Of a stretch of 64,000 nucleotides of DNA, positions 2,631 through 63,693 are shown one piece after another. The position numbers and the translations under genes were made by a program. The stretch is taken from contig CP136065.1 in NCBI GenBank assembly GCA_032622095.1, positions 54,059,949-54,123,948 on the forward strand, read 5' to 3'. Under the pieces are notes generated by a model that was not told the DNA's origin, searched no databases, and saw only the letters and a program-made list of their open reading frames with translations. Position 1 is the stretch's first letter; each line of letters starts with the position of its first letter. The DNA comes from Siphonodentalium dalli. Its lineage: Eukaryota; Mollusca; Scaphopoda; Gadilida; Siphonodentaliidae.

Positions 2631-5600
2631 CATCTGTATATCTAATAGTATATTAAGAAATCTTTTTCAATGCCAATTTAATAAATATGCTCAGTCTTAT
2701 AATGCTCAGTCTTATAATGCACGGTCTTTCCCTTCACCAATAAAACTGGCAACGTCGTGCTATAGACCTGACTGCTGAAAGCGACGTTAAACCCCAATAA
2801 ATAAATTAATCGTATTATACACCGCGGTATTATTATCCGATCAAGACGTTTTGACTCTAATGATGTTGTTATCAGATCATAGTTTAGCGCTGTGTGTTTG
2901 GCAAGATTCTCGCATTTCCCGACGACGAACGATTTGATTACCAATAATATAGGTAAAAACTAATGCCACATGGCGATCATAATTTAACCCTTTACCCAAC
3001 AAACCGGCCAAAAACGCCCAAATAAAGCTTCAACAGCCTAAAATACCTTCGGTCTGTCTCAATAACACCATACAAATATGGATATCATTGGAACCGGTTC
3101 ATTGACCACATTGTGATGGTTACAGTTATGCCCTGTGCCAATGCATTCTCTTATATATGCGAGTCGACCATAGGTCGCCTCGCATATATAAGAGAATTCA
3201 TTGGCCTAAAAAACACTTTTTACCATTTTTTCTTACATTCTTTAACAATTTTAGAATTTTTTCTTACATTTTTTAACATTTTTTATAATATTTTTCTACA
3301 TTCTTTGACAATTTTAGAATTTTTAATATGTGTTAAGCCAATGCATTCTCTTATATATGCGAGGCGACCTATGGTCGACTCGCATATATAAGAGAATGCA
3401 TTGGCACAGGGCCGTTCTGTTGGGTAAAGGACATAATCATCATCAACATTGAGGATCTGGGAAACAATCGATAACTTATTATATGATGTGATTGTGAGTT
3501 TTGTTGAAAATCCGAAACCGTAATCGTAACAATGACTGGGGGGAAATGACAACGATAGAAAGAACACAAATTCTAGTGACGCAGTACCCTATTCCTAATT
3601 CTTGTCTGTTGTCGTGCATTGTGCGAAAAGTGTCTAATAACGTGTTTACGTCATATACTTCTCTACCCAATGTTCCCCCAAAAAGAGAGCTATTTCAGAC
3701 CATTAATTAACTTTCCAGGTCCATGTGTTGCGGCTGTTGTCGGACTAAAAATGCCGAGGTATTGCCTGTTTGGCGACACAGTCAACACATCATCCCGGAT
3801 GGAATCTACTGGACTACGTAAGTTAGAACTACACTCTAAAAAATTAAATTTAAAGCAACCTCGATATATAACGATTATTCATTTGTCCTTTGCGTGTCCA
3901 ACATACGGACCAATGGTTTCTTACAGAGAACTAGTTGATTCTCCAAAATAGCAGTGTTTATTTTGGTTCTTCGTATAGTTAATATTTGGTTCTTCTTGCA
4001 GCTTCTTGGATAATATTCGGTTCATAAATATGACGTACATGTTTGAAGAACTAAAATTGTTCTACACTTTTGTCCCTCCCCAATCGGAGCAAGTTGGTTG
4101 CGCAAGAATAAAGTGTGGTTTGTTCTTCGTCGGTTGAAAATATTCACCATTTGTTGTTCATATCGATGTGCGTTAAAAAAAACAAAAAACATGCTCTATA
4201 GAAATGATGCAATGTCAAGTGGCATCCGTGGTTTATAACATATGCAACTTGATTTGGTGATATTTCGATCTCAGCTGTAACTGTCGTAAATAGTCCTGTT
4301 CGTATCAATTTCTTTGCATCTTATATACAGTATTATAATGTATCCATTTTAAAGTTTTAAGTGTCGTATAATATATACCTTTATAAATATTTAAACATAT
4401 ATCCATGATAGTGTTGTCATATTACTTGGTGTACCCATTATTGTTTTGCGTTGCATACAGACATATGAGGTGTTTGTACTTAATACATGTTTTGTTATGT
4501 TGTGTTACGTCATGTTATGGTATGACAAGTTGTGATCAACGAATGCTGCATTTCAGTTGAGTTAACGATTTCCTCTCTTTCAGCTCTGAAAATACATTGC
4601 AGTGGCGAATCTAAGAATATTCTTGATTCGCTTGGTGGGTACTACCTCGAGGAGAGGGGCATTATTAATATGAAGGTAAGCGATATATACAGACAACATA
4701 ATTAACTCTTCTGAATAGCGTGGGATTGTTCCCCTCAAGTGACATGGGGAGGATCGTTTTTCAAGACACTCTAGATGAGTGAAAATAATGTAGGAATTCC
4801 ATGAGAGGAGAAACAACACACGCAACACAACTCAGCTAACGGTTGTTTATTTCGCGCTACACCGCGTGTATAATGTTTCACTCATTCTTGGTATATATGG
4901 GCCATGGGTGTTTTATTTATAGAAATGGGAATTTTTGGGACGGATTAAAAGTCGAACTGCGACCCTGAGGCCGAGTCCGGTAATATGAGTGGTTGGGAAT
5001 TCTGGTGAGATGCATGAGAAGCCGTATATAGTTGTTGTAATAATTTGAAGGATTAGTTGTTTTAACGGAATTTTGAGTTGGTCATTCGGGAAACCAATAT
5101 ATTTTATATTCTATAATTACAATCATGGGTATATAATATATGATCTTATGACCTACAGCCCTTTGCTACCAACCAGACCACAGTGACACACATGGTTAGG
5201 CCTATACCACTTCCAAAAGGTACAACCTCACCAGCCTTTTTGTCTGCTAGTAAGCTGGTATTGTGATTGGCAGAAGCATGCAGTTACTGAATGAAACACG
5301 AAAAATTATGCTCAAATCATAATTGAACAAATGTATATTGTTTCAAAAAACTAACATTTAAGAGAATTATTGCGTAATGTTTGGACTATAATAGACTTAA
5401 AGGGATGTTACTCTATCTCATTTTCAGGGGAAAGGGAATAAGCTAACCTTTTTTCTGAACGGAGAGGACCAGAACCACAGACTGAAGCGTTTGGACGAGC
5501 AATCCGCTAACCACGTTGACAAATCCATGAAGAGGATATCAAGTTGTTCTTCTTGCATCATACAAAGGGACGCAACCTCATCAACAATGTGTTATGACGA

Positions 5601-16808: not shown

Positions 16809-17804
16809 GGGACATGACAATCTGCGGGATGGGATGGGATATGGGACAAAACGACAATCTGCGGGACAGAATTTTAAATTGCGTGGGACGGCCGATATCT
16901 CGAGGATTACATGGCGTAGGGGGCTCATTTTGGTGTCTAACGAAAGGCACACGTTCGCCCTATCCAAACATATTAACCCCACCACTAACCAAACACCAGA
17001 AGTTGCATTATTTGATCGACAACTGACCTAACATGGGGTGAAATTTGGGATAGCATGACAATCTGCGGGACAGGATTATCAAATTGCGTGGGACGGCCGA
17101 TAGCTCGAGGAATACAGCGCATAGAGGGCTACTTTTGTTGTCTAACGAAAGGCCCACATTCGCCCTATCCACACATATTAACCCCGCCACTGACCGGACA
17201 CCGGAAGTTACATTATCCGGTCGACAACTGACCTAACATAAAATGCCACAAACACGAAAAACTGCGTTCGACATTAATGTTTAGAATTTAGATTTCTCGA
17301 TGAATACACTAGCAAACAACAAGTTTTAGTAATCAAATAACGCAGTGGAATACTGTTCATTCGTTTTTAGCTACAATGTGGCTGTTTTAGTGCGAATATT
17401 GTAATGGCGAACACGCAAACACGCTCCGATAAAACAGCTAAAAATAGACTCGATGTTTACAATTACAGGATCGATTTCAGCCGGTTTATTCAATATAATG
17501 GGGCGTATAGTATATCAAAATGTAGAATTAGACACAGGGAATGTATTTTGTTCCAAATGGGTCCACCAGGCGGTGAAATTGTTGCAGAAATTCGCTCCAA
17601 GATATTCGCACTTATTTTTATTTCAGTTGTGACTAAAAGCCCAGAAGCCGGAGCACAGCGACTAAAAGCCAAGTTACAAAATAGATCAACTGGTTTCAAC
17701 GAATGAATATGTCAATGGTAAGACTATTCAAAAGAATATTCAAATCAAATAGTGTTTATAGACTTAAAAACTTATGTGTCCGCCATTCATATATGCGGTG
17801 AAGT

Positions 17805-19255
17805 TTTCATATTATCTGCCAGTAATACGCGGGGGAGGTTCTCATATGAACATATTATCTGCCGGTCATACACGGTGGAGGTTCATATTATCCACCGGTC
17901 ATACGCGAGGGAAGTTTTCTTATTATCCTCCAGTCATACGCGGGGGGAGTTCTGATATGAACATATTATCTGCCGGTCATACGCGGTGGGGGTTCATATT
18001 ATCCACCGGTCATACACGAGGGAGGTTCTCATATTATCCTCCGGTCATACGATGGGGAGGTTCTCATATGAACATATTAACCGCCGATCATACGCGAGGG
18101 AGGTTCTCATATTATCCACCGGTTATACGCGAGGGATGTTCTCATATTTGAGGGAGGTTCTCATATTATCCACCGGTTATACGCGAGGGAGGTTCTCATA
18201 TTATCCTCCGGTCATACGTGGGGGAGGTTCTGATATGAACATATTATTCGCCGGTCATACGCGGTGGGGGTTCATATTATCCGCCGGTCATGCGCGAGGG
18301 AGGTTCTCATATTATCCTTCGGTCATATGTGGGGGAGGTTCTGATATGAATATATTATCCGCCGGTCATACACGGTGGAGGTTCATATTATCCACCGGTA
18401 ATACGCGAGGGAGGTTCTCATATTAGCATCCGGTCATACATAGGGGAGGTTCTCATATGAACATATTATCCGCCGGTCATACGCGAGGGAGGTTCTCATA
18501 TTATCCGCCGGTCATACGCAGTGGAGGTTCTCATATGAACATATTATCCGCCGGTCATACGCGGTGGAGGTTCTCATATGAACATATTATCCGCCGGTCA
18601 TACGCGGTGGAGGTTCATATTATCCGCCGGTCATACGCGAGGGAAGTTCTCATATTATCCTTCGGTCATATGTGGGGGAGGTTCTGATATGAACATATTA
18701 TCCACGGTGGAGGTTCATATTATCCACCGGTCATACGTAGGGGAGGTTCTCATATGAACATATTATCCGCCGGTCATACGCAGTGGAGGTTCTCATATGA
18801 ACATATTATCCGCCGGTCATACGCGGTGGAGGTTCTCATATGAACATATTTTCCGCCGGTCATACGCGGTGGAGGTTCATATTATCCGCCGGTCATACGC
18901 GAGGGAAGTTCTCATATTATCCTTCGGTCATAGGTGGGGGACGTTCTGATATGAATATATTATATGCCGGTCATACACGGTGGAGGTTCATATTATCCAC
19001 CGGTCATACGTAGGGGAGGTTCTCATATGAACATATTATCCGCCAGTCATACGCAGTGGAGGTTCTCATATGTACATATTATCCTTCGGTCATACGCGGT
19101 GGAGGTTCTCATATGAACATATTATCTGCCGGTCATACGCGGTGGAGGTTCATATTATCCACTGGTCATACGCGGTGGAGGTTCTCATATGAACATATAA
19201 TCTGCCGGTCATATGCGAGGGAGGTTCTCATATTATCCACCGGTCACACCCGAGG
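17805..19255 (+). repeat. Minisatellite array, forward block
   Basis: Dozens of units centred on CCGGTCATACGCG(G/A) followed by (T/G)GGAGGTTC. They occur in about 31, 37 and 43 bp versions that differ by the linker TTCATATTATC, TTCTCATATTATC or TTCTCATATGAACATATTAT. The array is open in frames giving 'AGHTRWRFILSTGHTRGRF'-like strings, which are repeat artefacts. Confidence 0.92.
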
Positions 19256-19565
19256 GAGGATATGACCGGCGGATAATATGTTCATATGAGAACCTCCCCA
19301 ACGTATGACCAGAGGATAATATGAGAACCTCCCTCGCGTATGACCGGTGGATAATATGAATCTCCACCGCGTATGACCGGCAGATAATATGTTCATATCA
19401 GAACCTCCCCCGCATATGACCGGAGGATAATATGAGAACTTCCCTCGCGTATGACCGGCGGATAATATGAACCTCCATCGCATATGACCGGCAGATAATA
19501 TGTTCATATGAGAACCTCCCCCGCGTATGACTGGCAGATAATATGAGAACCTCCACCGCATATGA
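19256..19565 (-). repeat. Minisatellite array, inverted block
   Basis: Same units as 17805-19255 in reverse complement, about one fifth as long. The junction near 19256 lacks a loop, so the two blocks could form a long hairpin. Confidence 0.9.
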
Positions 19566-20353
19566 ATGGCGGGACACATAAGTTTTTAAGTCTATAAACA
19601 CTATTTGATTTGAATATTCTTTTGAATGCATTCCCTGTGTCTAATTCTACATTTTGATATACTATACACCACATTATATTGAATAAACCGGCTGAAATCG
19701 ATCCTGTAATTGTAAACATCGAGTCTATTTTTAGCTGTTTTATCGGAGCGTGTTTGCGTGTTCGCCATTACAATATTCGCCATATTGTAGCTAAAAACGA
19801 ATGCACAGTACTCCACTGCGTTATTTGATACCTAAAACTTGTTGTTTGCTAGTGTATTCATCGAGAAATCTAAATTCTAAACATTAATGTCGAACGCAGT
19901 TTTTCGTGTTTGTGGCATTTTATGTTAGGTCAGTTGTCGACCGGATAATGTAACTTCCGGTGTCCGGTCAGTGGCGGGGTTAATATGTGTGGATAGGGCG
20001 AATGTGGGCCTTTCGTTAGACACCAAAAGTAGCCCTCTATGCGCTGTATTCCTCGAGCTATCGGCCGTCCCACGCAATTTGAAAATCCTGTCCCGCAGAT
20101 TGTCATGCTATCTCAAATTCCACCCCATGTTAGGTCAGTTGTCGATCAAATAATACAACTTCTGGTGTTTGGTTAGTGGTGGGGTTAATATGTTTGGATA
20201 GGGCGAACGTGTGCCTTTCGTTAGACACCAAAATGAGCCCCCCTACGCCCTGTATTCCTCGAGATATCGGCCGTCCCACGCAATTTAAAATTCTGTCCCG
20301 CAGATTGTCGTTTTGTCCCATATCCCATCCCATCCCGCAGTTTGTCATGTCCC

Positions 20354-23526: not shown

Positions 23527-23829
23527 TAGGAACAAATCTTCATGCCAGTATACATGTAGTATTTCGAATAAAATTTCTTCACTCAATCTGATATATCTTG
23601 TTTGTTGTTAACCCCCACTAAGTTCGGTATATGCAGACACTATTTCAATGCGGTTGGTATGGGGGGTGTGGAGGGAGGTTAACCCCGGGATTCTCCGGAT
23701 AGGCCCTTTACCTAGCCTAATTAAGCTCCACATTATATTCCAATCAAGATATTTCACCTTTTATATATATATAAAAAATCTTTAACTTTAATATCTTCCT
23801 TGGCTGGAGTTTCCAGAGATTTTGTGAAC

Positions 23830-24006
23830 CCTGTGCTAATGCATTCTCAAATGTATATGCGAGTCTCCCATGGGGAGCTATGCACGCATATATAAGAGAA
23901 TACACTTGCATAAACTATTCACCTAGACGGTGTAAGCCAGTGAATTGTCCTATATATGCAAGATTCCATATGGGGGACTCGCATATATAAGATAATGCAC
24001 TGGCAT
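23830..24006. repeat. Degenerate pair of palindromes related to the piggyBac-like MITE
   Basis: 'CTGTGCTAATGCATTCTC...' and 'GCATATATAAGATAATGCAC' blocks form two imperfect palindromes with different centres from the intact copies. The order resembles the double-palindrome MITE, strongly decayed, without recognisable TTAA ends. Confidence 0.6.
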
Positions 24007-24123
24007 GGGATCTACTAATAAAATATAATTGCACCAGGGCGGGACATCATGGAAAGAGAGAAAGTAACTAAATGTAAAGAATATTTATGTACGTGTTTGT
24101 AGTTTCAATTTTAAACAAACATA

Positions 24124-27589: not shown

Positions 27590-30500
27590 ATGTTGGTGTT
27601 TTTCCAATTTCTCATCCTGAGCTTTGTTCTGACATCAAGCTTGGATTACACAACCCATTACTGGATTACACCAACGACAAAGGGCCTACTACTCCAGATT
27701 AGTATAGTGTTACCAAGCACTTCTGATTTCACACCTCTAATTGGTTTTTGTAAACACCATTCCTGTCTGCCAACTACCAACATGGGCTTCATTGTGTACA
27801 CGTCTGAGGAACTTCACACCATCAACAAGACAACAAATCACAACCAACACCGGCCTAGAGCCTCCTTGTTCAAGGTGATGAAGAAACACCGTATCCTGGA
27901 TCCAAAATTCTGTCACCCTACTTTTGACTCATCAAGGACATACAAAATTCCATGGAGTACAGAACATGTTCGAAGTTCTATCCAACATCATAATTGTGCT
28001 AAATCACCAAAACACACCAACAGTACTCTTGTTGAAATAGCTACACCACATCTCCAAGAGGATCCTATAGTTATTAACATCTTAAATGCCCGATCTATCA
28101 GGAACAAGGTCCACACCATCAACGATCTTGTGGCTGATAGCAAAAGTGACTTCTTCTTCATAACTGAAACCTGGCTGATGCGTGCTGGGGATGAAGCACT
28201 GATTAGCCAAGCAACACCTGTAGGCTATAACATGATATCATCACCAAGAAAGGGCACTGGCGGGGGCATCGGGTTGTTACACAAATCAGACTTTGCTGTC
28301 AATTGGAACGTTATCACACAGTATTCAACATTCGAGGCTGCTGAATTTATTATTAGAACACCTTCTCGACCCATAACATTCGTGTGTATTTACAGACCTC
28401 CACCGAGTAAAAAGAACAAGCTAAAAACTCCGAAATTCGTCAAAGATTTCAAAGCCTTACTCACGGCATATAGTTTAACAGATGGACATTCATTCATCCT
28501 AGGTGACATTAATCTACATTTTGAATCAATATCTGACAGCAATGTAAATTGTGTAAGAGAACTCATGGATAAATTTGGCTTCACACAGATCATAACGTCA
28601 CCGACTCATCGTTCACTACACACACTTGACTGGGTGATTATAAAAGAAAACACCATGAAAATTAACAGTCTCCAGGTCTCTGATAAAGCTGTTTCTGGCC
28701 ACTTCCTGATTGAATTTTCTTTCCGGAATGTGAAACCTGTTGCACTCAAACGTAAAGTCACTTCAAGGAATCTCAAAAGCATCGTGTTAAGTAAATTCTC
28801 ATCGGAGATCCGTGAAGCATTCCTATCTTCCACAAACTTGAACTCCTGCAACGACTTGGCAGTTTATTACAATGACCAGCTGTCTTCTATTCTTAATAAG
28901 CATGCACCCACGATGACACGCGAGATTACCAACAGGACATCTGCACCATGGCTAACTTCCCAAATTTTGAATAAGAAACGAGAACGCAGAAAGGTGGAGC
29001 GCATGTGGAGAAAATCTAAATTAACTGTTCACCGCGAAATTTTCAAGGAAATGAATACATGTGTAAGCGAGTTGATAAAGCATGCGAGATCTGACTTTTA
29101 TAGTGAACAATTAGCAAATTGCAAATCAACCAAGAAACTGTTCAACATTACCAACACTATGCTGGGCAAAGGTAAATGTTCTACTCTACCTAGTGACATT
29201 CCCATGGATACACTCCCAGAAACATTTGCCACATTTTTTCAAGACAAAGTTACCAAATTTCGTGCGAATATACAACAAGTGTCTGCAGGAGAAGCTGAGT
29301 TTGAGGAATTCACTGGAACCAAATTTGTTAAGTTTGAATGTGTTACAACAGAGACGGTTAAACGTGTTCTCATGTCAATGCCATCAAAATCGTGTTCTCT
29401 GGATCCTGTACCATCACTCATTCTTAAACGGCATAGCGACCAACTAGTAACGTTTCTTACGAGGATAGTGAATACATCCCTGGAAGACGGTATAGTTCCC
29501 ACTTGCTTCAAACAAGCTGTGGTTAAACCATTGCTGAAAAAGCCAAACATGGATAGGAACAATCTCAAGAACTATAGACCTGTTTCTAACCTTCCTTTTA
29601 TATCCAAGCTTCTTGAGCGCGTGGTACTCTATCAACTCAGACAACATCTGGAGGATAATGACATGAATGAACCTTTCCAATCAGCTTATCGACGACACCA
29701 CAGTACGGAAACTGCACTTGTCCGCGTCACCAACGACTTGCTTTGTGCAGCAGATGATCCCAATGTCACTATAGCCTCATTTCTCGACCTCTCTGCTGCC
29801 TTTGATACTTTGGATCACAACATCATAATTTCACGCCTTAACAAAACATTCGGAATTTCAGGGAAAGTTCTCCAATGGTTCAAGTCATATCTATCAGGCA
29901 GAATCCAGACTGTTCACAGTGGAGAATTCTGTTCCAAACCATATGAACTATCCTTTGGTGTCCCCCAGGGATCAGTCCTTGGGCCCGTGCTTTATCTCAT
30001 GTACACTAAGCCATTGGGGCAAATCATCACACAGAGAAATCTACAATACCACATGTACGCAGACGATACACTGATTTATATGCCCAGCTCACCATCAGAG
30101 TTCGCAAACAATATCTCAGAAATGCAGCAATGTATAACGGCAGTGAAAAATTGGATGGGCGCAAACCAACTGTGTTTAAATTATGACAAAACCGAGATAA
30201 TGTTATTTGGAACAGATCACAGAATTAAGAACACCCCTTTGGACTGCATTCGTATAGGTGATTCCGACATAAAGCCATCGTCGTGTGCCAGATATCTGGG
30301 CATTCACCTGGACAGTACTCTGTCAATGGAAGTGTACATAAACAATTTATGCAGAAGTCTATTTCTGGATATAAGGAGAATTTCTCACATCAGGCCATTC
30401 ATAACCACCGATGCTGCTAAAACTCTTGTTTCGTCATTTGTTCTTTCCAAGATTGACTGCTGTAACCCACTTCTGGCTGGCTTACCAAAGACAGAAATTG

Positions 30501-30928
30501 ATAAACTTCAACGTATGATGAACATTGCTGCTCGTGTGATTCTTAAGAAGCCAAAATTTTCTGACCTGACACCAATGTTCAAAGAACTGCACTGGCTACC
30601 AATTCAAGCCCGCATTGACTATAAAATTGCTGTCTTATGTTGTAAGAAAATTGACTGTCTCTCGCCCCTCCCTGTATATATCGAATCTCTTCTTTCATGC
30701 TATGTACCTGGTAAACCAGGCTTAAGGTCAGCTGATAAAATATTACTTGCTGTCCCCAAACGTGACCTTGTTAATTATGGTCGTCGATCTTTTGAATGCT
30801 ACGGCCCAAACCTTTGGAATTCACTCCCGCTTACACTTAGGAATTTTGCTACTTTGGAATCTTTCAAAACAGAACTCAAAACGTATCTGTTTAAACTTCA
30901 CTATGGCAACGACGACGACCAAAGCTGA
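27590..30928 (+). CDS. CR1-clade LINE ORF2: endonuclease and reverse transcriptase
   Basis: Uninterrupted 1112-aa polyprotein that nicks DNA and copies its RNA into the nick. An APE-type endonuclease occupies about residues 160-380: N166 in 'INILNAR', E193 in 'TETW', 'YRPP', 'LGDINLHF'. The expected SDH triad reads S369-G370-H371, so the usual Asp is missing. The reverse transcriptase follows with 'NYRPVSNLPFISKLLERVV', 'FLDLSAAFDTLDH', 'GVPQGSVLGPVLYLMYT' and Y823-ADD. A C-terminal region with 'LHWLPIQARIDYKIAVL' is typical of CR1/L2 elements. Residues 1-150 are of unknown nature, so the true start may be the Met at residue 65. No stop codon or frameshift was seen, so the copy is young. Confidence 0.93.
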   Translation: MLVFFQFLILSFVLTSSLDYTTHYWITPTTKGLLLQISIVLPSTSDFTPLIGFCKHHSCLPTTNMGFIVYTSEELHTINKTTNHNQHRPRASLFKVMKKHRILDPKFCHPTFDSSRTYKIPWSTEHVRSSIQHHNCAKSPKHTNSTLVEIATPHLQEDPIVINILNARSIRNKVHTINDLVADSKSDFFFITETWLMRAGDEALISQATPVGYNMISSPRKGTGGGIGLLHKSDFAVNWNVITQYSTFEAAEFIIRTPSRPITFVCIYRPPPSKKNKLKTPKFVKDFKALLTAYSLTDGHSFILGDINLHFESISDSNVNCVRELMDKFGFTQIITSPTHRSLHTLDWVIIKENTMKINSLQVSDKAVSGHFLIEFSFRNVKPVALKRKVTSRNLKSIVLSKFSSEIREAFLSSTNLNSCNDLAVYYNDQLSSILNKHAPTMTREITNRTSAPWLTSQILNKKRERRKVERMWRKSKLTVHREIFKEMNTCVSELIKHARSDFYSEQLANCKSTKKLFNITNTMLGKGKCSTLPSDIPMDTLPETFATFFQDKVTKFRANIQQVSAGEAEFEEFTGTKFVKFECVTTETVKRVLMSMPSKSCSLDPVPSLILKRHSDQLVTFLTRIVNTSLEDGIVPTCFKQAVVKPLLKKPNMDRNNLKNYRPVSNLPFISKLLERVVLYQLRQHLEDNDMNEPFQSAYRRHHSTETALVRVTNDLLCAADDPNVTIASFLDLSAAFDTLDHNIIISRLNKTFGISGKVLQWFKSYLSGRIQTVHSGEFCSKPYELSFGVPQGSVLGPVLYLMYTKPLGQIITQRNLQYHMYADDTLIYMPSSPSEFANNISEMQQCITAVKNWMGANQLCLNYDKTEIMLFGTDHRIKNTPLDCIRIGDSDIKPSSCARYLGIHLDSTLSMEVYINNLCRSLFLDIRRISHIRPFITTDAAKTLVSSFVLSKIDCCNPLLAGLPKTEIDKLQRMMNIAARVILKKPKFSDLTPMFKELHWLPIQARIDYKIAVLCCKKIDCLSPLPVYIESLLSCYVPGKPGLRSADKILLAVPKRDLVNYGRRSFECYGPNLWNSLPLTLRNFATLESFKTELKTYLFKLHYGNDDDQS

Positions 30929-45468: not shown

Positions 45469-45868
45469 TTAACCCTTTACCCAACAAACCGGCCAAAACC
45501 GGCCAAATAAAGCTTCAACAGCCTAAAATATCTTCGGTCTGTCTCAATAGAACCATACAAATATGGATATCATTGGAACCGGCTCCTTGACCACATTGTG
45601 ATAGTTACAGTTATGCCCTGTGCCAATGCATTCTCTTATATATGCGAGTCGACCATAGGTCGCCTCGCATATATAAGAGTATGCATTGGCCTAAAAAAAA
45701 TCTTTTTTTAACAATTTTTACCATTTTTTCTTACATTCTTTAACAATTTTATAATTTTTAATGTGCTAAGCCAATGCATTCTCTTATATATGCGAGGCGA
45801 CCTATGGTCGACTCGCATATATAAGAGAATGCATTGGCACAGGGCCCTGATGTTGGGTAAAGGGTTAA
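45469..45868 (+). mobile_element. piggyBac-like MITE, copy 2 (intact)
   Basis: TTAA at 45469-45472 and 45865-45868. The body is 392 bp with inverted ends CCCTTTACCCAACA and TGTTGGGTAAAGGG. The palindromes are 45622-45690 and 45770-45838. This is the cleanest copy in the window and equals copy 3 in length once the insertion in copy 3 is subtracted. Confidence 0.9.
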
Positions 45869-50873: not shown

Positions 50874-51455
50874 ATGGGAGGAGGAAATTCTATAAATGGA
50901 GGATCTACCGTGTCGCTAGTCATGCTAGGGTTGGACGAATCCGGCAAAACAACAATCCTATACAGACTCAAATTCAACCAGTACACCAACGCTATTCCAA
51001 CGGTTGGATTCAACTGTGAGAAAATAAAATACTCAAGTTCGGATGGGAAGTTTAAAGGTGTTACGTTGAACATTTGGGATATTGGTGGTCATGATAAAAC
51101 GAGGCCTTTGTGGGCCTCATACCTCAAATCTTCCGAAGGAATAATTTTCGTCGTAGACAGTTGTGACAAGGAACGGATCGAGGAGGCCCGTGTGGAACTT
51201 CTTAGGTTATTTCGGTGCTGTGACAGTTCTGGATTACCGTTGCTTATTCTTGCAAATAAACAGGACTTACCTGAATCAATGGACCCATCTCATGTTGAAA
51301 AGTTGTTGACTTTGAATGAGCTTCCTCCTGGTCATTTGTGGAAAACTTTACCCGTGTGTGGAATAACAGGGGAAGGTCTCGATGAAGCAATAGACTCCAT
51401 GTTTGATTTGTTGATCAAGAAGAAAAAGACAAAGAAAACGAAGAAGAGGTGGTGA
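50874..51455 (+). CDS. ARL4-like ADP-ribosylation-factor-like GTPase
   Basis: Complete intronless 193-aa ARF-family GTPase; in animals ARL4 proteins act at the plasma membrane and recruit ARNO-type exchange factors. Gly2 (MGGGNS) fits N-myristoylation. P-loop 'GLDESGKTT' at 19-27, switch I 'IPTVGFN' with T43, switch II 'WDIGGHDKTRPLW' at 68-80, 'ANKQD' at 127-131, and the guanine loop 'CGITGEG'. The C-terminus is polybasic (KKKKTKKTKKRW), as in ARL4A/C/D, where it serves membrane binding and nuclear localisation. The catalytic Gln of switch II is His73 here (codon 51090-51092). ARL14/ARL11 are less likely because they lack the basic tail. Confidence 0.93.
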   Translation: MGGGNSINGGSTVSLVMLGLDESGKTTILYRLKFNQYTNAIPTVGFNCEKIKYSSSDGKFKGVTLNIWDIGGHDKTRPLWASYLKSSEGIIFVVDSCDKERIEEARVELLRLFRCCDSSGLPLLILANKQDLPESMDPSHVEKLLTLNELPPGHLWKTLPVCGITGEGLDEAIDSMFDLLIKKKKTKKTKKRW

Positions 51456-52619: not shown

Positions 52620-53121
52620 TTAAAGGCACGCGAGGCCTTAGTTGTCGAAAATATTCATATTTGTTCCAATCGCCGCAAACCGAAAAACATTAAAATGCAT
52701 ACAGTTTCGTTCATATATACCATGACCATCGCGTAAACAGCATGTTATCATAAAGACCTACTATATTTTACCTAAGCAAGAGCCTGATTGTGTTACAGAA
52801 GACAGCACAATGCTACTGGCTAATCACACACAAATGGCATAAACGCTCTTTATTAGTTCCATATCAGGAATTCACCAACAAAGAACGCTCTTTATGTTTA
52901 CCATCATAATATAAACAAACACCAGAAAAGTTACTTTTTATGCTTTTGTTTACATAACAATGGTCAAACATTTGAAAATAACATACTGTTTATACGATAT
53001 TTCTTATTTGTATACGGACAAAGTCTGTCTACATTTTGATGTTCTTTCTGTTTGTGGCGGTTTTTGACGGGCGGAAATATTTTCACAGGATACCCACCGC
53101 CAAGGCCAACCGTACCTTTAA
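52620..53121 (+). mobile_element. TTAA-flanked MITE family 2, copy D (nested)
   Basis: TTAA at 52620-52623 and 53118-53121; ends AGGCACGCGAGGCC and GGCCAACCGTACCT; 494 bp, equal to copy F. It lies in the left arm of the family 3 element. Confidence 0.88.
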
Positions 53122-56377: not shown

Positions 56378-57112
56378 GAAATATATTATTATGGAAGGAA
56401 CAAGTGCTAACAATGAAATATATATCCCTTGCATTGTGTGTTCAATGTTATCAAGATTCCCGTCAGAATGGGTCCGAACATCAAACAGTTACCATTTTGA
56501 ATTGGCGGACTATGATATCAATATATCGGGCGTAGCCAGAGTGTAGATTCATGGCATGATTTGCTGGAACCCAAGCTTGAGGTACCTGTTGAAAAATCCA
56601 CTGTCATGAAATTTTCAGACTGATTAAAATCGGTGCTGCAGTTGGAAATTCTAAATCGGACACAAAACAAAGATAATCTAACCACTTCCCTGTGTGCATT
56701 CTCTCTTATACACACTTCACTATTATTCAGCGGCGCAACATTAAAGTGCAATATATTATTATGGAAGGAACAAGTGCTAATAAAGAAATATATATCCCCT
56801 GCATTGTGTGTTCAATGTTATGTCAGCACAGGTCAGAACATCAAACAGTTCCCATTTTGAATTGGCGGACTATAATATCTATATATCGGGCGTAGCCAGA
56901 GTGTAGATTCATGGCATGATTTGCTGGAACCCAAGCTTGAAGTACCTGTTGAAAAATACACTGAATGAAATTTCCCCGGATTTTGGAATTTCAGACTGAT
57001 TGAAGACGGGGCAGTTGGAAATTCTAAATCGGACACTAAACAAAGATAATGTAACCACTTCCCTGTGTGAATTCTCTCTTATAAACACTTCATTATTATT
57101 CACTGGTGCAAC
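56378..57112. repeat. ~367 bp tandem duplication
   Basis: Two copies starting AATATATTATTATGGAAGGA (about 56382 and 56750), each holding GGGCGTAGCCAGAGTGTAGA and GGAACCCAAGCTTGA. The units resemble the arm of the 47826-48370 fold-back element. Confidence 0.85.
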
Positions 57113-57117
57113 ATTAA

Positions 57118-57867
57118 AGACCCTGTGCTAATGCATTCTCTTATATATACGAGTCGACCATAGGTCATCTTTTTTTTTATCATTTGTTCTCAATTTTTCT
57201 TACATTCTTTAACAATTTTTTATCAATTTTTATTATTTATTCTTACATTCTATAACAATTCATTTTTTCTTATATTCTTTAACAATTTTATCATTTTTAT
57301 ATTTTTTCTTGCATTCTTTATTAATTTTAATAATTTTTTTCTTACATTCTTTAACAATTTTTATCATTTTTTTAGCATTATTTCATACATTGCATAACAA
57401 TTTTTTATCATTTTTAAAAAGAAAATTCTTACATTTTTTAACTATTATATAGAGGATCTCACATGAGTTTCTATTTTATACGGAATTTATCAACCGAGTT
57501 CACTAAATTCGATTTGAGCCGAGGTTTACCGAGGCTCAAATATAATTTAGAGGACGAGGTTGATAAATTACGTATAAAATAGGACGAGTGTGAGATACCT
57601 TTTATCACATGATCAAATAAACCCGAAGCAACGCGAAATATTCATCGAAACAACAATCAACTACAGCGATCGCAAGTTATTTGAAGAACGCCGTGACGTC
57701 ATCGCACGCGCTGATATTAAACGTGTCTATTACCGATAATTATGAAACTGCTTTTATGGCCAAATTATGAGATAAAAAAATATATATAAATATTGTTAGG
57801 CCAATGAATTCTCTTATATATGCGAGGCGACCTACTCATATAAGAGAATGCATTGGCACAGCTAGGG
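57118..57867 (+). mobile_element. Degenerate piggyBac-like MITE with expanded spacer
   Basis: A truncated left palindrome (57121-57172) and a right palindrome with its centre deleted (57799-57859) flank a long spacer. 57175-57450 holds about eight diverged TTCTTACATTCTTTAACAAT repeats. A separate hairpin at 57454-57598 follows. No clean TTAA ends. Confidence 0.7.
57454..57598. repeat. ~145 bp hairpin inside the degenerate MITE
   Basis: CTCACATGAG, CTATTTTATACG, AATTTATCAACC and TTTGAGCC at the left pair with GGCTCAAAT, GGTTGATAAATT, CGTATAAAATAG and CTCGTGTGAG-like at the right. Confidence 0.8.
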
Positions 57868-58346
57868 TTTTGGCAAAAAATCAGGAAGCTCCCGTCATGA
57901 AAGGGTTAAAGGAGACTTCTCTCTCATACACACTTCACTATTCTACTCCATTTGCATTTCCTTGTGTAACGTACATGCGTCCCTATCCAGTCCGGCGAAC
58001 ATGCATGGTGCCGGACACTTGCAGCATGAGATCCCCAGACGGTGAATTTAGTGACGCTACCCCAAAGTCATCCTCTGGGGACCTCATTCGGCATTTCCTC
58101 AGCTGCTATGGGAGACCAAGACTCAGATTTAAGTTCCCACATGGTGAATATTGTGATTTGCACCCGGGCACCTCGATTATGCAATATGCCGTCAGTCAAT
58201 TTTTGGGATATAGAGAAACTATACCAAAAACGAAAAACATCTTTGTGAAAAAATTTCTAAAGAAACTAAAAATCTTGTTAATTTGATAATAATAAAGATA
58301 CTATTTATAGAATATGAGGCCTAAGCAGAATGAGGTCCACATGGTG

Positions 58347-59598: not shown

Positions 59599-60496
59599 TT
59601 AACCCTTTACCCAACAGAACGGCCCTGTGCCAATCCATTCTCTTATATATGCGAGTCGACCATAGGTCGCCTCGCATATATAATAGAATGCATTGGCTTA
59701 AAGACACGGCTGGCCTTGGCGGTGGGTATCCTGTGAAAATATCTCCACCCGTCAAAAACCGCCACAAACAGAAAGAACATCAAAATGTAGATAGACTTTG
59801 TCCGTATACAAATAAGAAATATCGCATAAACAGTATGTTATGGTCATTTGTTTGACCATTGTTATGTAAACAAAAGCATAAAAAGTTACTTTTCTGGTGT
59901 TTGTTTATATTATGATGGTAAACATAAAGAGCGCTCTTTGTTGGTGAATACCTGATATGGAACTAATACAGAGCGTTTATGCCATTTGTGTGTGATTAGC
60001 CAGTCGCATTGTGCTGTCTTCTGTAACACAATCAGGCTCTTGCTTGGGTAAAATATAGTAGGTCTTTATGATAACATGCTGTTTACGCGATGGTCATGGT
60101 ATATATGAACGGAACTGTATGCGTTTTAATGTTTTTCTGTTTACGGTGTTTGGAACAAATATGAATATTTTCGACAATTAAGGCCGCACGTGCCTTTAAC
60201 ACATTAAAAATTATAAAATTGTTAAAGAATGTTAGAAAAAATGGTAAAAAGTGTTTAAAAAAGTTTTTTTTTAGGCCAATGCATTCTCTTATATATGCGA
60301 GGCGACCTATGGTCGACTCGCATATATAAGAGAATGCATTGGCACATGGCATAACTGTAACTATCACAATGTGGTCAAGGAGCCGGTTCCAATGATATCC
60401 ATATTTGTATGGTTCTATTGAGACAGACCGAAGATATTTTAGGCTGTTGAAGCTTTATATGGCCGGTTTTGGCCGTTTTGTTGGGTAAAGGGTTAA
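59599..60496 (-). mobile_element. piggyBac-like MITE, copy 3, interrupted by MITE copy F
   Basis: TTAA at 59599-59602 and 60493-60496; ends CCCTTTACCCAACA and TGTTGGGTAAAGGG. Palindromes at 59629-59697 and 60275-60343. The inserted family 2 element plus one TTAA accounts for 498 bp, leaving 392 bp, exactly the length of copy 2. Confidence 0.9.
59698..60199 (-). mobile_element. TTAA-flanked MITE family 2, copy F (nested)
   Basis: TTAA at 59698-59701 and 60196-60199; ends AGACACGGCTGGCC and GGCCGCACGTGCCT; 494 bp. The pre-insertion site reads GGCTTAACACAT in intact MITE copy 1 (reverse complement near 3328-3339), with a single TTAA. Confidence 0.92.
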
Positions 60497-63365: not shown

Positions 63366-63693
63366 TTAACCCTTTACCCAACAAAACCGGCCAAATAAAG
63401 CTTCAACAGCCTAAAATATCTTAGGTCTGTCTCAATAGAACCATACACATATGGATATCATTGGAACCGGCTCCTTGACCACATTGTGATAGTTAAAGTT
63501 ATGCCCTGTGCCAATGCATTCTCTTATATATGCGAGTCGACAATAGGTCGCCTCGCATATATACGAGAATGCATTGGCCTAAATTTTTTTTTAAGCCAAT
63601 GCATTCTCTTATATATGCGAGGCGACCTATGGTCGACTTGCATATATAAGAGAATGCATTGGCACAGGGCCCTTCTGTTGGGTAAAGGTTTAA
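63366..63693 (+). mobile_element. piggyBac-like MITE, copy 4 (short spacer)
   Basis: TTAA at 63366-63369 and 63690-63693; ends CCCTTTACCCAACA and TGTTGGGTAAAGG. Palindromes at 63510-63578 and 63595-63663 are separated by only 16 bp. The spacer repeats seen in other copies are absent. Confidence 0.88.

Follow-up and report, generated by a model that had tools for sequence, protein, structure and literature searches.

A TTAA-flanked MITE that appears to carry another MITE whose ends are palindromes

Introduction

Why should a short transposable element contain two long palindromes, each the reverse complement of the other, and does anything keep their arms alike? Long near-perfect palindromes are expected to disappear from genomes, and against this expectation the element at 45469-45868 of our window carries two of 69 bp. 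The window is the whole 64,000-nt stretch that was analysed, C5:54059949-54123948 of a 2.23-Gb eukaryotic assembly in 9 contigs. The first-pass annotation of this stretch had described a miniature inverted-repeat transposable element (MITE) built from palindromes, and had proposed recent spread, correction between arms or a role in transposition as reasons for their near-perfection. We followed the element and its palindromes through the genome, and here set out what their boundaries, abundance and patterns of change indicate about their origin and possible function.

Family A elements in the window

The element at 45469, assigned to family A, carries a perfect inverted repeat of 18 bp, TTAACCCTTTACCCAACA, at both tips (Table 1), and this 18-mer matched the window seven times at up to three mismatches, against 0.04 matches expected. 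Each palindrome consists of 33-nt arms around a 3-nt centre, and the pair is placed asymmetrically, 153 and 30 bp from the tips with the TTAA counted. That the second palindrome is the reverse complement of the first was borne out within two 79-nt stretches, 45615-45693 and 45767-45845, which are mutually 97% complementary. A single palindrome strand is predicted to fold at -32 kcal/mol (z -12.4). Palindromes of two types were distinguished, type I with the centre TCGACC-ATA-GGTCGC and the older type II with TCTCCC-ATA-GGGAGC.

The four copies named in the first-pass annotation, with two 69-bp palindromes each, are real. Its claim of a single arm mismatch kept in all copies stands for the family, in that a T.C mismatch is found in all eight palindromes of these four copies, but it fails for individual copies, which have extra arm mismatches (for example at 45680, 3198 and 63542). 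Two older, damaged relatives had been overlooked at ~23680-24040 and 57060-57910; in the latter, one palindrome is half lost (57127-57166) and the other has its centre deleted (57800-57857). The 898-bp copy contains ~490 bp (59702-60195) absent from the other window copies, with no ORF of 100 aa lying wholly within it. No Rfam family matched the window at the gathering threshold, and a search of viral contigs for an exact 27-mer returned no match.

Table 1. Family A elements, their parts and older relatives in the window (positions in the window)
Feature	Position	Strand	Details
Family A element, TTAA-flanked MITE	45469..45868	+	~53,000 genome copies by end counts
Left terminal inverted repeat including TTAA	45469..45486	+	
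Unique region, left subterminal, of family A	45487..45615	+	
Putative nested S element, internally deleted (palindromic ends and shortened spacer)	45616..45844	+	S alignment; boundaries CCCTGTGCC/GGCACAGGG shared with solo S
Palindrome 1	45622..45690	+	T at 45649 (outer arm), C at 45663 (inner arm)
Spacer, AT-rich	45691..45769	+	
Palindrome 2, reverse complement of palindrome 1	45770..45838	-	
Right terminal inverted repeat including TTAA	45851..45868	-	
Second family A copy	2984..3430	+	Palindromes 3137-3205, 3337-3405; right tip altered
Third family A copy	59599..60496	-	898 bp, interior ~500 bp longer; palindromes 59629-59697, 60275-60343
Fourth family A copy	63366..63693	+	Spacer nearly gone; palindromes 63510-63578, 63595-63663
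Older element, family C-like ends, type I palindromes	57060..57910	.	Boundaries approximate
Old family C-like element, type II palindromes	23680..24040	.	Palindromes 23835-23910, 23936-24004; boundaries approximate

Genome-wide abundance and age of family A

At no more than one mismatch, TTAACCCTTTACCCAACA was found at 52,983 + 53,058 places in the genome, whilst a reversed control pattern gave 1 and 4; these ends correspond to about 53,000 family A elements, tandem arrays included. The palindrome stem, TATGCGAG-N15-CTCGCATA, occurred at 146,476 places genome-wide (control, 1), and palindromes were present in 6 of 10 random 5-kb stretches drawn within the first 150 Mb of contigs. Three tandem arrays (G000:C1:735542-785877, 825885-915866 and 262720272-262855851) were also seen, with spacings of ~14.5 kb, 11.2 kb and 6.8-15.7 kb and with a palindrome or an element copy in their units.

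The family A sample consists mainly of copies from the initial 6 Mb of contig C1, with their ends intact. The 30 best copies, taken from 40 scored out of 2301 candidates, were 0-4 bases in 400 off the majority sequence, and TTAA stood at both ends in all 30 of the fetched best copies (L004 and L013 have common flanks). Copies L083-L090 were fetched without flanks, and some of them may be duplicates. With so few differences among the best copies, and ~1% private changes outside the spacer in copies not selected on their palindromes, family A is young, which upholds the recent spread proposed earlier. Its tip, CCCTTTACCCAACA, combines a CC[C/T]T start with a 12-19 bp inverted repeat, as specified by the definition in the available text of PMC2872659.

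A separate TA-bounded element whose palindrome module recurs in four MITE families

The palindromes also occur in a second element, S, of which two complete solo copies of 368-371 bp were recovered, bounded by TA, starting with CCCTGTGCC and ending with GGCACAGGG. The 368-bp copy, in L114, reads GTAATT-TA-CCCTGTGCC...GGCACAGGG-TA-ATAGTAG, and the 371-bp copy, at 1119-1489 of L061, lies between TTCTT-TA and TA-AAAAAA. Their flanks are unrelated, their two ends are the same, and neither has any of the ends of the families A, B, C and E described below. L112-L114 were found by a pattern demanding TA at one end (L112 and L113 are half copies), which gave 1334 + 1306 ends with T at -13 in many different contexts. 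Because the pattern demands TA, only the second TA of L114 and both of L061 are independent; Each complete solo copy has TA at either end, but the search itself imposed one of these four TAs, and no empty site was seen. A query with the empty site of a family B copy gave no match and is uninformative.

Solo S copies were 96-98% identical to the S inside family B (L024, L069, L096 and L098). Aligned to the window, the S of L114 matched 45616-45757 at 88.7% over 142 bp, covering a palindrome and part of the spacer, and 45764-45844 at 97.5%. Given the boundaries of solo S and this alignment, the window element is best read as a TTAA element with an internally deleted S. Judged by sequence, its palindromes are most readily understood as the terminal inverted repeats of S, which would be why they are mutual reverse complements. 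A TTAA MITE that contains a second, palindrome-ended MITE is a better description than a MITE built from palindromes. The position of the palindromes at the very ends of a separate element between TAs also lends indirect support to the role in transposition suggested in the first-pass annotation.

In most outer flanks read across the four host families, the palindrome is preceded by a constant boundary, CCCTGT or a form of it differing by one base. Family A has the ends TTAACCCTTTACCCAACA. Family B (TGTGACCCGCCATATC) has TGTGACCC ends and TA flanks, the TA being present at either end of 4 out of 6 copies. Family C ends in TTAACCCTTYCATGACTGGAGC, with 41,311 + 40,658 ends at up to three mismatches from TTAACCCTTCCATGACTGGAGC, and in family E, with ends TTAACCCTTTGAGTGCCAGG, each of the three copies read from end to end (L020, L099 and L102) had a single palindrome. 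TTAA and CCCTT ends are common to families A, C and E, which share the palindrome module despite different ends, and copies of families A and C have no TA at the S boundary. This distribution suggests that one palindrome-ended MITE rides in several MITE families. Twelve of the loci were picked from the stem matches listed, mostly outside family A pairs, and their mix is no census.

Partial copies were also encountered: L112, L113, L101, L103, L108 and the family E copies keep one palindrome or have S cut off within the spacer, for which either deletion or one-ended movement may be responsible. Separately, a family E copy (L020 2862-3351) and a family A copy (L078) occupy an identical TTAA within copies of a single repeat, where the left flanks agree at 93% over 54 bp; either the target received an element twice or the elements swapped ends.

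Changes within the palindromes after insertion

Decay after insertion was followed in 27 copies not chosen on their palindromes, comprising copies with matching ends on C1, bystanders in fetched loci, copies in random stretches and those of the window. L072 (a segmental duplicate of L071) and L086 (mis-oriented) were dropped from the counts, and the 898-bp copy at 59599 was left out of the alignment. Private substitutions amounted to 31/3292 (0.94%) in the arms and 40/3322 (1.20%) in the left unique region (Fisher p = 0.34), and to 1.22% in palindrome 1 and 0.66% in palindrome 2 (p = 0.11). The AT-rich spacer exceeded the arms (48/1753, 2.7%), although badly aligned T-runs may inflate its divergence; its better aligned part still stood at 26/1319 (1.97%; p = 0.007 against the arms). 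Free divergence of the arms, at the pace of the rest of the element, had been named in the first-pass annotation as evidence against its reading. The arms do diverge as freely as the left unique region but not as the spacer, and the excess in the spacer counts against fully free decay of the arms.

Mirrored changes are absent from the arms of young copies. Ungapped type I palindromes had 37 arm changes (32 in 63 unselected palindromes and 5 in 60 selected ones), not one of which had its counterpart in the opposite arm, a count that omits palindromes gapped or cut by a locus end, low-scoring type II palindromes and loci L099-L114. This omission drops palindrome 1 of the element at L061 2639, whose two outer arms share one change. 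In that element (L061 2639-3003), an identical C>A lies in the outer arms of both palindromes and is absent from the intact inner arm of palindrome 2, which suggests either an exchange between palindromes or an inherited variant. With no mirrored change among 37, and arms resembling the left unique region, correction between arms after insertion, the second of the original proposals, is not supported.

The T.C site allows a further comparison, since a change of C to A here makes the palindrome perfect. C>A was found at 562 places genome-wide and C>G or C>T at 1037, with C>G accounting for ~18 of 100 among the matches listed. The resulting A:G ratio of ~3:1 is near the 13:3 (C>A:C>G) of the background in the same copies, so correction is not in excess. 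The mismatch was kept in 77 of 78 palindromes among the matches listed (72 type I and 6 type II), many of which lie in tandem arrays.

More than 3 nt were missing from a palindrome in 7/27 elements, compared with 4/27 for a 110-bp stretch of the left region, and the earlier description of this DNA as very unstable was therefore overstated. This lesion count leaves aside two insertions, of 33 nt in L077 and of 6 nt in L080, both of which lie in palindrome 1. Several break points, identified by reading the alignments, lie within short repeats (L071, L075 and L089). As to whether copies with a damaged palindrome cease to spread, a palindrome junction occurred at 39 places, with 18 contributed by two tandem arrays of C1, and a control junction outside the palindrome at only 12, a comparison that does not discriminate. 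Overall, the near-perfect look of the palindromes seems to be due mainly to the youth of the copies, without sign of cellular repair.

Palindrome changes in lineages that spread

A different pattern was found among changes carried by several copies. Defining a subfamily-diagnostic site as one with a change common to at least 3 of the 27 copies, we found none among 132 arm sites compared with 8 among 110 sites of the left region (37-146; p = 0.0016), and at a threshold of two copies the left region had 12 and the arms 1 (p = 0.0007). The conservation of the palindromes in lineages that spread is a further indirect point in favour of a role in transposition.

Types I and II differ by two pairs changed on both sides, 30/40 and 31/39, whilst the T.C mismatch is kept, with one exception among 16 type II palindromes. 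Type II also varies internally: A5G with T65C was mirrored in six palindromes and one-sided in at least two (L009 and L093), C24T with G46A was mirrored in three and one-sided in two (L063 and L095), and a frequent change at position 62 was one-sided. Mirroring thus characterized 4/5 of the fixed changes classified and 0/37 of the private ones (Fisher 4e-5), a post hoc comparison drawn from 16 old palindromes. The old single copies L015 and L019 have mirrored pairs as well. Together, the conservation of the arms and the mostly mirrored fixed changes among those classifiable suggest a dyad-symmetric function, which is probably transposase binding.

Discussion

S keeps constant boundaries in unrelated contexts, and its palindrome module is found in four families. 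To account for this, we propose that the window element, of family A, is a TTAA-target MITE with an independent MITE, S, inside it in internally deleted form. In this reading S is an element of ~370 bp flanked by TA, presumably its target duplication, with a 69-bp palindrome bearing CCCTGT on its outside as each terminal inverted repeat. Its palindromes would have risen to high copy number within several MITE families (A, B, C and E) whose ends differ, having entered A and C by insertion of S; of these families, A expanded recently. Each palindrome may serve as a dyad-symmetric binding site for the S transposase, in which each arm provides one half-site and the T.C pair marks orientation. A requirement for binding, acting only in lineages that spread, could then keep the arms alike and cause fixed changes to be mirrored. 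As piggyBac-type dimers bind short palindromes, a dyad site for the S enzyme is by analogy the most economical reading. We assign the explanation as a whole, in which A carries a deleted S and the palindromic ends are dyad transposase sites, a probability of about 0.6.

The near-perfect arms might instead be maintained by copying from arm to arm, through template switching in hairpins or conversion, making a function unnecessary. Such a mechanism has been described for other inverted repeats, according to the accessible part of PMC8604942, and the mostly mirrored differences fixed between subfamilies would fit template switching equally well, as would the C>A shared by the outer arms of L061 2639, the mirrored pairs of L015 and L019 and the lower divergence of arms than of spacer. 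We nevertheless regard it as unlikely, since the changes in type I arms are unmirrored, perfect centres are no more frequent than the background spectrum predicts, and arm copying should erase a T.C mismatch that was in fact kept almost throughout the matches listed. Also unlikely, in our view, is that no separate element is involved and the palindrome pair is simply an internal part of TTAA (piggyBac-type) MITEs to which the transposase of these MITEs binds. The TTAA and CCCTT ends throughout A, C and E would be expected of such elements, and the asymmetry of the family A palindromes recalls that of the 19-bp piggyBac palindromes described in the available portion of PMC11707139. However, identical module boundaries in family B, with its TGTGACCC ends and TA flanks, and solo S between TA in unrelated DNA both argue for an element of its own.

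A plainer account holds that these are ordinary young MITEs whose core folds back by chance, with palindromes devoid of function. It draws on the recent burst and on post-insertion arms that diverge like the left unique region, but it leaves unexplained the lack of diagnostic changes in the arms beside those of neighbouring sites, and old type II elements that retain palindromes of different arm sequence with the same T.C mismatch; we hold it to be quite improbable. Two further mechanisms were considered and found unsupported. Site-specific inversion of the loxP kind, between two asymmetric inverted cores, had a single apparent case, the inverted spacer of L086, which proved to be a mis-orientation of the alignment. 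Parvovirus-like hairpin transfer is expected to mix centre orientations, and among the palindromes read T lies on the inner arm only in the damaged L074 and L027.

Several known systems resemble parts of this arrangement. Coral CMITEs, as presented in the available text of PMC2872659, measure ~100 bp and are estimated to number 1600 in A. millepora. Like family A, they lie between TTAAs and have CCCTT-type ends, and their interior is common to families whose ends differ. The shared interior here differs from theirs in being a mutually inverted pair of 69-bp palindromes that also occurs solo between TA. Tc1/mariner (Stowaway) MITEs, which target TA, share the TA flanks and terminal inverted repeats of solo S, but unlike them each S terminal repeat is itself a 69-bp palindrome. 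The ends of piggyBac contain identical 19-bp palindromes, asymmetric from the tips and bound by a transposase dimer, and those of piggyBat contain imperfect ones (PMC11707139, text available in part). Both systems are similar to ours in having asymmetric palindromes near the ends, theirs being short (19 bp in piggyBac). No eukaryotic MITE recognised as having long palindromes for terminal repeats, nested in several families, was encountered among the papers listed in the literature searched.

Bacterial REPINs offer a further parallel. As set out in the accessible sections of PMC3116915, they consist of two palindromes in inverted orientation and, like S, form a doublet able to fold into a hairpin, with a one-sided motif next to the palindrome. 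A conserved stem mismatch is required for the activity of E. coli REPs, and the mismatch of one REP group resembles the conserved T.C described here (PMC8266576, in the part available). S differs from the REPINs of that first account in its eukaryotic host, longer stems and carriage inside TTAA and TA elements; that the host is not a bacterium is clear from the 2.23-Gb genome and from window ORFs in which GPCR, Arf and guanylate cyclase domains were recognised. A bolder idea than the dyad site would make S a eukaryotic counterpart of REPINs, in which single-strand hairpins, with T.C and CCCTGT, would be read by a doublet-moving enzyme, hitch-hiking through cut-and-paste families to more than 100,000 palindromes. 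We think this idea very unlikely.

In a search for an enzyme that might move family A, 128 stretches of the genome matched PF13843 (piggyBac-type). The family A end was not found within 1.5 kb on each side of the 30 of these loci that were fetched, whilst TTAACCCTTTATCTGCT, of which only the first 11 bases are common with the family A end, was present at 9/30.

The contrast between unmirrored changes in young copies and conserved, mostly mirrored palindromes in spreading lineages points, at the level of sequence, to a function in movement. Set against the expected loss of palindromes, one genome has an intact inner stem at 146,476 places, and with tens of thousands of differently aged copies of one palindrome the rates of decay, of arm correction and of inversion of the centre can be measured. 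If S indeed rides inside several families, it also complicates the naming of MITE families from internal sequence.

Other features of the window

Three further features of the window were recorded. At 16853-20309, a 205-bp tandem pair lies on either side (16853-17239 and 19922-20309) of a 1.8-kb array of CATATTATCCGCCGGTCATACGCGG-type units, which flips to the reverse complement near 19260-19570; the whole is possibly a large foldback element. An uninterrupted ORF of 1112 aa at 27590-30928 contains a reverse transcriptase domain of the non-LTR retrotransposon type, together with a weak endonuclease-like match slightly below the Pfam cut-off. A second uninterrupted ORF, of 193 aa at 50874-51455, encodes an Arf GTPase domain (E 4.5e-52).
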